From an uncultured Acidimicrobiales bacterium (GTDB lineage: Bacteria; Actinomycetota; Acidimicrobiia; Acidimicrobiales; SZUA-35): a stretch of DNA of 64,000 nucleotides. Of the stretch, positions 21,026 to 48,910 are shown piece after piece; position 1 is the first letter of the stretch; every line of letters starts with the position of its first letter. The stretch is taken from assembly GCA_937922785.1 (NCBI GenBank), contig CALAJQ010000003.1, positions 1-64,000 of the forward strand. The letters run 5' to 3'. The notes beneath the pieces were generated by a model. It saw only the letters and a program-made list of their open reading frames with translations. It did not search any database and was not told the origin of the DNA. A program made the translations under genes and the position numbers.

Positions 21026-21242
21026 TTGCCGTTCCCCGGCCACGGAGGCCGCCCGCGTCACGCTGGCTGTGCTGGGACCGCACTGTCTTGCCGTTCCCCG
21101 GCCACGGAGGCCGCCCGCGTCACGCTGGTCGTCAGCGGTCGTTGCGCTGTCTTGCCGTTCCCCGGCCACGGAGGCCGCCTGCGTCACGCTGGTCGTCAGC
21201 GGTCGTTGCGCTGTCTTGCCGTTCCCCGGTCATGGCGGCTCG
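21026..21242. repeat. 64-bp tandem repeat array
   Basis: Three full units start at 21026 (62 bp), 21088 (64 bp) and 21152 (64 bp), followed by a decayed partial unit at 21216-21242. Units two and three differ by one base; unit one diverges in its last 20 bases. Each begins with a 27-base core (for example 21088-21114) containing CGGCC-ACGGA-GGCCG, a small hairpin. The same core occurs at 48113-48140. The array fills most of the 292-base gap between two divergent genes. The open frames across it are a by-product of the repeat and not genes. Confidence 0.92.
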
Positions 21243-31599: not shown

Positions 31600-33716
31600 T
31601 TAAAAAGGCGGCGAAGAAGGCCCCAGCTAAGAAAAAGGCGACAGCCAAGAAAACGCCGGCAAAGAAAACGCCAGCCAAGAAAAAGCCGGCTGGCAAAAAG
31701 CGGGGCTCCGGATATGACGCATCGCAGATCCAAATCCTCGAGGGCCTCGATGCCGTTCGTAAACGCCCTGGAATGTACATCGGGGGCACCGGTGAAGAAG
31801 GCCTTCATCACTTGGTCTGGGAAATCATCGATAACTCAGTCGATGAAGCTGCTGCTGGCTTTGCGGGCCACATTGAAGTCAACATCCATCGCGACGGCTC
31901 TATCGAAGTAAGCGACGACGGCCGCGGTATCCCAATCGACAAAAAGCCAGACGGCCGTACCGCACTCGAGGTGGTGTTTACAGAGTTGCACGCTGGCGGA
32001 AAATTCGGCTCCGGTGCCTACTCAGCATCGGGTGGCCTACACGGCGTAGGTGCATCGGTGGTCAACGCACTGGCAAAGAAGCTGGTGGCCGAGGTTGATC
32101 GGGACGGGGCCACGCACCGTCTTGTTTTTGTTGACCGCCTGCCGGGCAACTACAACGCTGCCGGCAAATTCAAGCCAACATCAAAATTGGCCAAGGTCAA
32201 GAAGATTCCCGCCTCCAGGACCGGCACCAGAATTCGCTACTGGCCCGACCTTGACATCTTTGACCCCGAGGCAAAGATTGACCGGGAGAAAGTTCGTGAA
32301 CACGTAGCCCGTGTCTGCTTCTTGGTTCCAGGTCTGCACATAAAGCTGCACGACAAGAGGGCCGGCGGCGGTAAGCCCGAAGAATTCGTCGCTGCAGGCG
32401 GTCTCGCCGACTATGTCGACTTCCTATCTTCAGCCCCAGCAGTCACAGATATCATCAGCCTTCACACCGACGCCACCTTTGAAGAGAAGGTACCGGTTGA
32501 CGGGAAGATGAAAACGGTCACCCGAAACTGCACCGTCGATATCGCCGCTCGCTGGGTGCAAAGCTTCGAACCCAAAATAGTCAGCTTCGTAAACACGATT
32601 CCCACTTCAGAAGGCGGCACCCACGTTGCCGGTTTTGAACGGGCGTTGCTGCGTACGGTTAACGACCGCCTCCTCAACGACGCTCGAAAGCTGAAGAAGT
32701 TGGCGAAGTCCAATGACGATCGAGCCACTAGCAACGACGTCCAAGAAGGCCTAGTAGCTGCGGTCAAAGTGACCTTCCCCGAACCACAATTCAAAGGCCA
32801 GACAAAGCAGGAACTGGGCACGCCTCAAGTGCAGTCACTTGTCTATGACACAGTTAAGGCCGGCCTTTCGGACTGGATGGATGGGGGCGGAAAGAAGGGG
32901 CAGATCAATGGGCTTCGAGAGAAGTTGACCTCGGCCGTCATCAACCGCGTTTCAGCCAAGCAGCAGCTTGACCTGAAACGCAAGGCGGCAAACCTCTCCT
33001 CAACCGGCATGCCGGACAAGTTGGCGGACTGTCGGGTTCATGGTCCGGATTCTGAGATTCTCATTGTGGAAGGAAATTCTGCGGCTGGCCCCGCAAAGAA
33101 CGGCCGCGATGCGGAGTTCACTGCGGTACTTCCGCTTAGAGGCAAGGTTGTTAACGCTGGCAAAGCCAGCCTGAAACAGGTCATCGATAACGCAGAAGCC
33201 CAGGCCCTGATCACCGCAATCGGCGGAGGTTCCGGCGCAGACTTCGACGTTGACGCTTGCCGCTATGGCCGAATCATCATCCTGTGTGACGCCGACGTCG
33301 ACGGCAGCCACATTCGCTGTCTACTTTTGACCCTCATCTATCATCACATGAGACCGTTACTCGAACACGGGATGGTCTATGCGGCGCAGCCCCCTCTGTT
33401 CGCATGCAAACACAAAGGCACTCAGTACTACGCGTATTCCCCCGAGGAACGCGAGCAGCTTCACGAGGAGCACAAGATGGGTGACAAGTACTGGCAACGC
33501 TTTAAGGGTCTGGGCGAAATGAACGTGGACGAGCTGGCCGACACCACGCTTAACCACGAGACTCGTCTACTAAAACGAATGAGCATGCAAGACGGAGCTG
33601 AAGCGTCAGAAGCTGCACATCTGTTTGGGGTCTTGATGGGTTCGGATGTGTCAACCCGCAAGGACTACATCGTCGAGAAGGCCGGGCTGATCGACCCCGA
33701 GCTTCTAGACGTCTAA
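31593..33716 (+). CDS. parE: DNA topoisomerase IV subunit B with lysine-rich N-terminal tail
   Basis: A 707-residue ATPase subunit. Residues 1-37 are a histone-H1-like tail of Lys, Ala and Pro (AKK-x-PAKK repeats), absent from typical ParE. The GHKL ATPase follows: EIIDNSVDE, DDGRGIP, GGLHGVGASVVNAL. The TOPRIM domain has DADVDGSH (about 565) for metal binding. In the usual EGDSAGG motif the sequence reads EGNSAAGP, keeping the catalytic Glu. The TTG start overlaps the parC stop by 7 bases; no other start would keep the conserved N-terminus. The tail may add non-specific DNA binding. Confidence 0.92.
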   Translation: MVVKKAAKKAPAKKKATAKKTPAKKTPAKKKPAGKKRGSGYDASQIQILEGLDAVRKRPGMYIGGTGEEGLHHLVWEIIDNSVDEAAAGFAGHIEVNIHRDGSIEVSDDGRGIPIDKKPDGRTALEVVFTELHAGGKFGSGAYSASGGLHGVGASVVNALAKKLVAEVDRDGATHRLVFVDRLPGNYNAAGKFKPTSKLAKVKKIPASRTGTRIRYWPDLDIFDPEAKIDREKVREHVARVCFLVPGLHIKLHDKRAGGGKPEEFVAAGGLADYVDFLSSAPAVTDIISLHTDATFEEKVPVDGKMKTVTRNCTVDIAARWVQSFEPKIVSFVNTIPTSEGGTHVAGFERALLRTVNDRLLNDARKLKKLAKSNDDRATSNDVQEGLVAAVKVTFPEPQFKGQTKQELGTPQVQSLVYDTVKAGLSDWMDGGGKKGQINGLREKLTSAVINRVSAKQQLDLKRKAANLSSTGMPDKLADCRVHGPDSEILIVEGNSAAGPAKNGRDAEFTAVLPLRGKVVNAGKASLKQVIDNAEAQALITAIGGGSGADFDVDACRYGRIIILCDADVDGSHIRCLLLTLIYHHMRPLLEHGMVYAAQPPLFACKHKGTQYYAYSPEEREQLHEEHKMGDKYWQRFKGLGEMNVDELADTTLNHETRLLKRMSMQDGAEASEAAHLFGVLMGSDVSTRKDYIVEKAGLIDPELLDV

Positions 33717-33726
33717 ACTGACGCCT

Positions 33727-33918
33727 ATGTCCTGGCTTTCGAAATTGGCGTTCTGGCGAGATGACGAGCCTGAGATCACCGAACCCAGCCAACCCGGCAT
33801 CGAGCACATGGACGGCTACGAAGTTAATGGCTGCTTTGTACCGAACGAAGAGGAGCCCGACTCTCAGGCGCTGTCTGATGCAGTGCTGGAAGACAGCCCA
33901 GATCCCTTTCTGTCATAG
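33727..33918 (+). CDS. Small acidic protein downstream of parE
   Basis: A 63-residue acidic protein beginning MSWLSKLAFWRDDEPE, with no recognised domain. It starts 10 bases after the parE stop and probably shares the transcript. Its last four codons and stop codon lie inside a 48-bp perfect palindrome. It may be a real conserved small gene or a chance frame; the amphipathic start and position favour real. Confidence 0.5.
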   Translation: MSWLSKLAFWRDDEPEITEPSQPGIEHMDGYEVNGCFVPNEEEPDSQALSDAVLEDSPDPFLS

Positions 33919-33955
33919 GTTTATCGGGCTATAGCCCGATAAACCTATGACAGAA
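33908..33955. terminator. 48-bp perfect palindrome, probable bidirectional terminator
   Basis: The sequence from 33908 to 33955 is its own reverse complement: two 24-base arms with no spacer, centred between 33931 and 33932 in GGCTATAGCC. It overlaps the end of the small gene and lies between convergent genes. As RNA it would fold into a stem of over 20 bp on either strand. The arms are far longer than in normal terminators, and a cruciform or protein-binding role is possible. Confidence 0.7.
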
Positions 33956-46938: not shown

Positions 46939-48174
46939 TTAATCGTGCTTGTATGGCAGCTCGACGCTTACTAATGCGCCACCATCTTCATTGTTAGCGG
47001 CTACACAAGTGCCTCCGTGTAGTTCAACGATTGTTCGCGCAATTGCCATGCCTAGCCCAACTGACCCTGACCGGTCACCGCGCCGGAACCGCTCAAAAAC
47101 ATGGTCGATGATTCCCGGATCAAACCCCGGGCCATCGTCGGCTATGTCGATCCGGGCCATCCGAGGGCCCAAGTGGGTTGTAAGCACCACCTTGTCAGCA
47201 CGGGCCGCGGCGTTTCGAGTGATGTTGTCAACAACTTGACGCAACAGGTTGTAGTCCGCCTCGACGACCACGGCCTCGCCCGGAATCGATTCGATGATCG
47301 TCCCGTCTACTCGCACCGATGCAGCAACTTCTTCAACCATGAGATCTAGCCTTAGCGGCGCCAATCGAGGTTTGGCCTGGCCTGCCTCAAGTCTGGCAAA
47401 TTCAAGCAGCTCCCCCACGCTTACTCCAGCGCGTTCGGTCGCGGTCAGAATTTCGCTAAGAGACTCGCGGTACTCGTCATCACTTCTGTTTCTGGACAAA
47501 GCGTGACCGGCCGAAGCTTGAATGATCGCAAGAGGAGTCCTTAACTCATGAGCTGCATCGGCGATGAAATCGCGATTGACCGCTCGGGCTCTTCGAACTG
47601 GCGCCGCCAACCGCCCCGCCGCCATCCATGCTGCCAACCCTGCCAGGGCGGTGATTGAGGCCAGCACCAACGACCACATCCAAGCTGCGTTTCTGATTGT
47701 GGCGTCCTGGTTGCCACGCCACACAACGGCGAGGAGGACTTCTTCCTCGGCCCACTTTTCGGCGTGAGCCAGCCACTGGCCATCGAAGTCATACTCTCGG
47801 GTATTGGTGCCAGTCTCCAAAGCCGGAGCGGCCAAAGTCATGATGGAGGGTTCGGTGTCCACCTCACCAAACGCGCTGAACCAGTCGCCGTCGGGGTTCA
47901 CCTGCCAGACGTTCTTCGGCGCAGGCTCATCGTTGTCACGCCAGTAACGAATCGCTCCTGCAATGGCTTCGTCTGCATCAGCTTGAGTGTCAGCTCGGGC
48001 ATCATCGATCGAGTCTCGATAAGCAAGCCAAACCAAAGGGCCGGCAAGCAACAACGTAAGCGCCATGGCACCCAGAGCCGGAAAGAGTCTTTGCCTTGTC
48101 GTGACGTCCTTGTTTGCCGTTCCCCGGCCACGGAGGCCGCGTGGCTTACGTCCGTCTTCGGTCAACGCATTCAT
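46939..48174 (-). CDS. Sensor histidine kinase with repeat-derived N-terminus
   Basis: A 411-residue two-TM kinase: TM1 about 31-51, an extracytoplasmic sensor of about 110 residues, TM2 about 164-185, HAMP-like linker, HisKA with AAHELRTPLA (His209) and HATPase_c with DNITRNAA, DDGPGFD and GSVGLGMAI. It senses an outside signal and phosphorylates the response regulator encoded upstream. Residues 1-22 are encoded by a 63-bp tandem duplication at 48113-48237 that shares its core with the array at 21.0 kb. The ATG at 48174 overlaps a 21-codon mini-frame by ATGA. Confidence 0.92.
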   Translation of the reverse strand: MNALTEDGRKPRGLRGRGTANKDVTTRQRLFPALGAMALTLLLAGPLVWLAYRDSIDDARADTQADADEAIAGAIRYWRDNDEPAPKNVWQVNPDGDWFSAFGEVDTEPSIMTLAAPALETGTNTREYDFDGQWLAHAEKWAEEEVLLAVVWRGNQDATIRNAAWMWSLVLASITALAGLAAWMAAGRLAAPVRRARAVNRDFIADAAHELRTPLAIIQASAGHALSRNRSDDEYRESLSEILTATERAGVSVGELLEFARLEAGQAKPRLAPLRLDLMVEEVAASVRVDGTIIESIPGEAVVVEADYNLLRQVVDNITRNAAARADKVVLTTHLGPRMARIDIADDGPGFDPGIIDHVFERFRRGDRSGSVGLGMAIARTIVELHGGTCVAANNEDGGALVSVELPYKHD

Positions 48175-48237
48175 GTTTGCCGTTCCCCGCCACGCAGGCC
48201 GCGTGGCTTACGTCCGTCTTCGGTCAACGCATTCATG
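48113..48237 (-). repeat. 63-bp tandem duplication across the regulator-kinase junction
   Basis: Copies are 48113-48175 (63 bp) and 48176-48237 (62 bp); the second lacks one base and has one substitution in the core. The first 28 bases of the first copy (48113-48140) match the core of the 21.0 kb array. Each copy carries an ATGAATGCG start region, so both supply a potential start codon. Confidence 0.88.
48171..48236 (-). CDS. 21-codon mini-frame between response regulator and kinase genes
   Basis: The second repeat copy has an ATG (48236-48234) overlapping the response regulator stop (ATGA). It encodes 21 residues and stops at a TGA (48173-48171) that overlaps the kinase ATG (again ATGA). 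The peptide repeats the first residues of the kinase (MNALTEDGRKPRGLRG) before shifting frame owing to the one-base deletion. It probably serves translational relay rather than making a functional peptide. Confidence 0.45.
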   Translation of the reverse strand: MNALTEDGRKPRGLRGGERQT

Positions 48238-48910
48238 CCGCCAAGCCCCCAATTCTGTAACCGACTCCTCTTACTGTCTCGATCGGGTCATCCATTCCTG
48301 GTCCTTGGAGTTTGCGGCGCAGGTTTGCGACGTGCACGTCTACTACGTTGGAAAGTCCGTCATAGTTTGCATCCCACACGTGATCGAGAAGATCTTCTCT
48401 CCTACAAACTTCCCCTGACCGGCGCATCAAGTAATCCAGAAGTGAAAACTCTCGCGGAGTCAGTGGCACCAGAATTGCGCCCCTGGTGACGGTATGAGCG
48501 GCCGGATCCAGGCGGATGTCATCCACCATAAGAATTGGGTTGGTCGAACTCGGCGGACGCCGCAACAACGCCCTCACCCTCGCTGCCAGCTCCGGGTAGG
48601 CGAATGGCTTTGTCAGATAGTCATCAGCGCCCGCGTCCAGCCCTGCAACTTTGTCCGACAGATCATCTCGGGCGGTCAGCATCAGAATTGGAGTCGTGTC
48701 ACCTTGGGAACGCCTAGTCCGACACAATCGCGCTCCATCTCCGTCTGGCAGACCAAGGTCAAGCACCATCAGATCATATTCGTGGATGCTCAGAGCCTCG
48801 TCAGCTCCGGCCACCGTTCCAACATGATCGACTGCGTGACCCTCTTCTCCGAGACCACGCACAATCACCCGCGCAAGGGAGGCATCATCTTCGATCAGCA
48901 GTAAGCGCAC
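48233..48910 (-). CDS. OmpR family response regulator
   Basis: A 225-residue regulator. The receiver domain has IEDD acidic residues, phosphorylation site Asp51 (MVLDLGLPDGDG) and Lys in YLTKPFAYPEL; the C-terminal winged helix (about 130-223) has VPLTPREFSLLDYL and VDVHVANLRRKL. It is the partner of the kinase encoded downstream and probably binds direct repeats in front of its own gene and the divergent DUF1800 gene. Confidence 0.93.
   Translation of the reverse strand: MRLLLIEDDASLARVIVRGLGEEGHAVDHVGTVAGADEALSIHEYDLMVLDLGLPDGDGARLCRTRRSQGDTTPILMLTARDDLSDKVAGLDAGADDYLTKPFAYPELAARVRALLRRPPSSTNPILMVDDIRLDPAAHTVTRGAILVPLTPREFSLLDYLMRRSGEVCRREDLLDHVWDANYDGLSNVVDVHVANLRRKLQGPGMDDPIETVRGVGYRIGGLAA

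Follow-up and report, generated by a model that had tools for sequence, protein, structure and literature searches.

The tandem repeats found in the 64,000-nucleotide stretch of DNA analysed here (the window) represent, with a probability of roughly three in four, copies of a non-autonomous, hairpin-forming miniature repeat of the REP/REPIN/BOX type. Such an element would be copied to new sites as a single-stranded hairpin on which a trans-acting enzyme works by recognition, and after insertion it might provoke the slipped-strand duplication of itself together with the adjoining DNA. By its behaviour the repeat is similar to REPs, REPINs and BOX elements, yet we do not count it as a member of any of these families, because the tested tags and the association with a transposase fail.

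Two tandem arrays with a shared core

Tandem Repeats Finder delineates one array at 21026-21229 (period 64, 3.2 copies, 92% matches) and another at 48111-48237 (period 62, 2.0 copies, 96% matches). The exact 26-mer TTGCCGTTCCCCGGCCACGGAGGCCG begins at 21026, 21088, 21152 and 48114 and has no exact match in 100 dinucleotide shuffles of the window. A previous sequence-only reading had described units of 62-64 bp in the 21 kb array; four were recovered there (Table 1), with their cores spaced by 62, 64 and 64 bp, as was the string CGTCnnCGGTC that it had noticed in the spacers of both arrays (CGTCAGCGGTC and CGTCTTCGGTC). Its proposal that the two sites share a core holds with the qualification that the second core at 48 kb, starting at about 48176, has lost one base and carries a C in place of a G. 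Similarly, the location in coding DNA that it had claimed applies within the window only to the 48 kb copies, which lie inside a histidine kinase gene, at its 5' end and directly behind its response regulator gene, while the 21 kb array is intergenic: on either side of it a divergent gene starts, one for an ABC ATPase (start 20986, minus strand) and one for a GDSL hydrolase (start 21279, plus strand). The window also contains tandem repeats of 15/18 bp at 31613-31690, probably coding sequence rich in lysine and alanine, and a perfect loopless 48-bp palindrome at 33908-33955 (TTCTGTCATAGGTTTATCGGGCTA plus its complement), apparently where an ORF ends.

Table 1. Coordinates of the two arrays and of the genes and ORF at the 48 kb site
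Feature	Position	Strand	Remarks
Array 1, unit 1	21026..21087	+	Core 21026-21051, then spacer
Array 1, unit 2	21088..21151	+	Core 21088-21113, then spacer containing CGTCAGCGGTC
Array 1, unit 3	21152..21215	+	Core 21152-21177, then spacer
Array 1, unit 4 (last, partial)	21216..21242	+	Degenerate core TTGCCGTTCCCCGGTCATGGCGGCTCG
Array 2, 54-bp element	48109..48162	+	Left end, core 48114-48139, right module; orthologues without it
Host start region of the kinase, ATGAATGCGTTG	48163..48174	-	MNAL; inside the duplicated unit
Minicistron, MNALTEDGRKPRGLRGGERQT plus stop	48171..48236	-	From the 62-bp duplication; ATGA overlap with regulator stop and kinase start
Histidine kinase gene (HisKA, HATPase_c)	46939..48174	-	Bears the insertion
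Response regulator gene	48233..48910	-	Upstream operon partner

Insertion in the histidine kinase gene

The orthologues of the kinase from seven relatives (other genera, 55-64% identity) start with MNSL-SD, MNAL-RD or later and do not possess the 18 extra residues (TEDGRKPRGLRGRGTANK) that the source kinase carries in frame after codon 4, between MNAL and D. These residues are encoded by the 54 bp made up of the core and the right module, and this comparison shows that the insertion of the core element is younger than the kinase gene itself. The orthologous kinases likewise lie close behind a response regulator, with an ATGA overlap in several cases. In the source genome a 62-bp duplication of the insert and the host start region has produced a 21-codon ORF, which is joined by an ATGA overlap on both sides. 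We infer the mobility of the element from this single empty site together with the way its copies are scattered.

Copies in the source genome and beyond

The sequence-only reading had suggested searching the whole genome for the core. This search, with up to 3 mismatches, recovered 55 copies of the 26-base core at about 36 loci, as against 0 for the reversed control, thereby extending the core beyond the two window sites. Taken with about 3 kb of flanking sequence, the 36 loci comprise 59 units, and at 13 loci the units are in tandem with spacings of 26-95 bp, most commonly 59-66 or 45. Most of the loci are intergenic; one core (L067) lies in a 2-oxoacid dehydrogenase acyltransferase, within the linker that joins the lipoyl and E3-binding domains. 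On contig 12 the segment 51951-54742 between inverted arrays contains one methyltransferase-like ORF and others which, by inspection, are not transposase-like.

The sequence-only reading's alternative of a common motif of unrelated bacteria did not hold: the exact 23-mer occurs in 2 of 84,980 species genomes (a set from which the source genome itself may be left out), namely one Acidimicrobiales MAG and Desertimonas flava, which is also of the Acidimicrobiales. D. flava has 92 altered copies, almost every one reading GCGTTCCCCGGCCACGCAGGCCG, in the MAG there are 10 copies of several forms, and one to three copies each were found in four genomes belonging to another family. Among 36 other genomes of the source genome's family, searched with two mismatches, the core is absent except for one variant in genome G030; viral contigs yielded 0 copies, plasmids and phages no match, and a literature search for the core strings found none. 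An order-wide search with 3 mismatches returned mostly chance matches, the controls being often equal, and nonetheless revealed relatives in genomes G601 and G450, where the core, with a GGGCC/GGCCC stem, lies within a longer repeat of about 330 bp in G601. This G601 repeat is dispersed and non-coding, holds the core variant inside it (L257, L261, L265, L273, L277, L280) and has no match in Rfam.

Anatomy of the element and candidates for a mobilising enzyme

The full element spans about 54-60 bp and consists of a conserved left module and a variable right module, the aligned units reading CTTT-GCCGTTCCCCGGCCACGGAGGCCG followed by the variable half. The left module, CTTTGCCGTTCCCCGGCCACGGAGGCCG, contains the hairpin CGGCC-ACGGA-GGCCG, whose loop is able to pair with an upstream CCGT. 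The right module ends in about GGTCGGGACGC and corresponds in part to a decayed, inverted copy of the left module: at some loci the second half reads as an inverted, decayed core, complete in L093 and also seen in L096, the unit of which folds as one long hairpin (z -4.8). This inverted-repeat architecture exceeds the 95% null level in only 7 of 49 source-genome units, and in D. flava it does not rise over background. At two loci (L065, L085) the second half occurs in tandem. The bases ahead of the stem are TTCCC, or TTCC in G601, and in no case GTAG or CGTC.

A classical REP or REPIN moved by the source genome's own RAYT (Y1 HUH) transposase is an unlikely reading, for which the hairpin repeats in high copy number, the inverted doublet of L093 and the presence of two Y1 genes in the genome speak. 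Against it, none of the five Y1 loci of the three host genomes (two in the source genome, three in D. flava and the MAG) has the core beside the transposase gene, and the readable Y1 flanks carry other inverted repeats instead; moreover, the GTAG tag is missing and direct tandem arrays predominate. In the source genome the inverted repeats are GGGTCAAGTCTC... at one Y1 gene and GGGGACAGGCCTGG... at the other. The former belongs to a repeat, CTAGCTACTTTTGAGACTTGACCC, that is dispersed in 44 copies; it makes up the inverted ends of a Y1 gene and is found beside the core at three loci, the loci noted for this repeat being L099 (C12:209135-210231), L103, L110 and L111. In D. flava the palindrome CCGAGATAGTGCCAGGCACTATCTCGG stands on both sides of a Y1 gene (L222, 1408-1435 and 2279-2306), and a similar one follows a core array in L174. 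The gene calls of D. flava were left out, being unreliable in short GC-rich stretches.

TnpB (PF07282) is absent or below cut-off in the three host genomes. Flanking direct repeats are significant at only about 4 of the 36 source loci, where they are ambiguous because tandem duplication explains them too, and no clean target-site duplication was found at the core loci of the source genome. The sequence-only reading's notion of a dispersed, REP/MITE-like family fits, while for its further suggestion of self-propagation no enzyme is attached to the core.

Covariation of the hairpin

The 5' NCGT and the ACGN' of the loop covary between genomes, as does the stem. Core position 1 and loop position 17 form C-G in the source genome, G-C in D. 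flava, and T-A both in the MAG and in a single copy of G601, the corresponding variants being GCGT/ACGC in D. flava, TCGT/ACGA in the MAG and, with the stem GGGCC/GGCCC, in that G601 copy, and CGGT/ACCG in G030. Over 45 distinct cores, the helices NCGT/ACGN' and CGGCC/GGCCG have 93.3% of their cells paired as against 86.3% in shuffled sets, a figure in which conserved pairs are over-represented because consensus patterns served to collect the rows; the double changes (26 versus 11 shuffled) do not stem from that. The covariation score is 0.212 versus 0.098 for shuffled sets, a value reached in 0 of 500 shuffles, and slid registers give at most 0.047. Within the MAG alone the permutation p is about 0.02, in what is a weak test. 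A second hairpin in D. flava, with 21 stem variants, shows Watson-Crick pairs in 127 of 147 cells as opposed to 89.6 in shuffles (maximum 109 in 20,000). At short inverted repeats, template-switch correction may likewise give rise to covariation without selection, and the complementarity of the arms could also be maintained by template-switch repair.

A more elaborate and rather improbable reading would make the core the recognition structure of a hitherto undescribed Acidimicrobiales mobilisation system, in which the single-stranded hairpin might be read through the pairing of the upstream tetranucleotide NCGT with the ACGN' of the loop, so that the pairs would be genome-specific, and insertion might trigger local duplication that includes host DNA and start codons.

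It is quite improbable that the repeat is instead a functional structured RNA (a terminator, a leader or a processing signal) which owes its amplification to that function and its place to selection at gene 3' ends. Besides the covarying hairpins, the very stable folding of some units such as L096 would agree with this, as would the position of several units directly after stop codons in sense, with 10 of about 35 source-genome loci beginning 0-16 bp past a stop codon of the same direction. However, the orientation has no overall preference (13 loci behind a gene in sense versus 21 facing a gene start), and some copies lie in coding DNA. In the window, the units show no gain in folding over shuffles (z between 0.64 and -1.16), and Rfam covariance models run on 14 loci gave only sub-threshold matches, none near the gathering score. 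Furthermore, G-U and A-C mispairs are about equal (16 versus 13 with both helices pooled), making single-stranded DNA or a cruciform as likely a form of the hairpin as RNA. Of the RNA structure suggested by the sequence-only reading there remain the covarying hairpins, whereas the wobble pairs have no strand preference and the window units are no more stable than their shuffles.

Growth of the arrays

Insertion came first and tandem duplication in place later, since the spacers are common within a locus and not between loci, and host flank may be found inside the unit. In the source genome the identity of the downstream sequence is 0.68 within and 0.48 between loci, and in D. flava that of the units is 0.83 within and 0.58 between loci; two D. 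flava arrays (L196, L202) contain a start codon inside their units. Slipped-strand mispairing aided by the hairpin would be the simplest cause of this growth. Degenerate or miniature CRISPR arrays have next to no probability: the period of about 62 bp and a base resemblance, through GTTCCCCG, to type I-E CRISPR repeats are all that points to them, and they are excluded by spacers that repeat within each array and correspond to the element or host flank, and by loci that are scattered and often single. Just as negligible is independent local slippage at two sites sharing a motif by chance, for while arrays do expand locally, this is refuted by the 55 genomic core copies, the lack of matches in shuffles and the empty site of the kinase orthologues.

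Comparison with known repeats and implications

The likeness to REPs and REPINs of the GTAG and CGTC superfamilies lies in short palindromes of high copy number that are mostly extragenic, with some intragenic, and paired or clustered (PMC3733652); at some loci the inverted, decayed second half of the unit also resembles a REPIN, but only the 7 of 49 units named above exceed the null level. CGTC REPs are likewise without a dedicated transposase, and most REP families have few or no head-to-tail dimers (PMC3733652). In contrast, the present core has neither a GTAG nor a CGTC foot, its 5-bp stem closes a loop that pairs with upstream bases, its arrays are mainly direct and no RAYT gene carries it. 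TIRYT elements (PMC3733652) are present in the same genome and stand beside the core at three loci, with inverted repeats that differ from it in sequence. The BOX elements of Streptococcus pneumoniae (PMC3049150) are comparable to some degree in being composite and modular, with hairpins and a module in variable tandem number, and in that their insertions alter genes and form ORFs; however, their sequence is unrelated, no boxA/boxC-like termini were found, and here it is usually the whole element that is repeated rather than an inner module.

A further parallel, by description, is offered by the MIRUs of Mycobacterium, tandem units of which lie between senX3 and regX3 (PMC4213456), with a small ORF overlapping its neighbours by ATGA that has been described in the same terms (PMC12548453). 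Both cases combine tandem units in a two-component operon with a small ORF and -4 nt overlaps. In the present family, however, the coupling is confined to the 48 kb locus, the element is on the other strand, the start of the ORF is copied host sequence and the unit length differs. The effects on genes, namely the coupled minicistron at 48 kb, the insertion in the acyltransferase linker and the placement after stop codons, look like tolerated by-products.

In conclusion, these observations add a previously undescribed family of structured repeats in a poorly studied class, and show how such an element can give rise to a new minicistron that lies between the genes of a two-component pair and is coupled to them in translation, in parallel to the mycobacterial MIRUs. 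The genome-specific, covarying loop pair also provides a handle for finding the mover of repeats that have no transposase of their own, such as the CGTC REPs.
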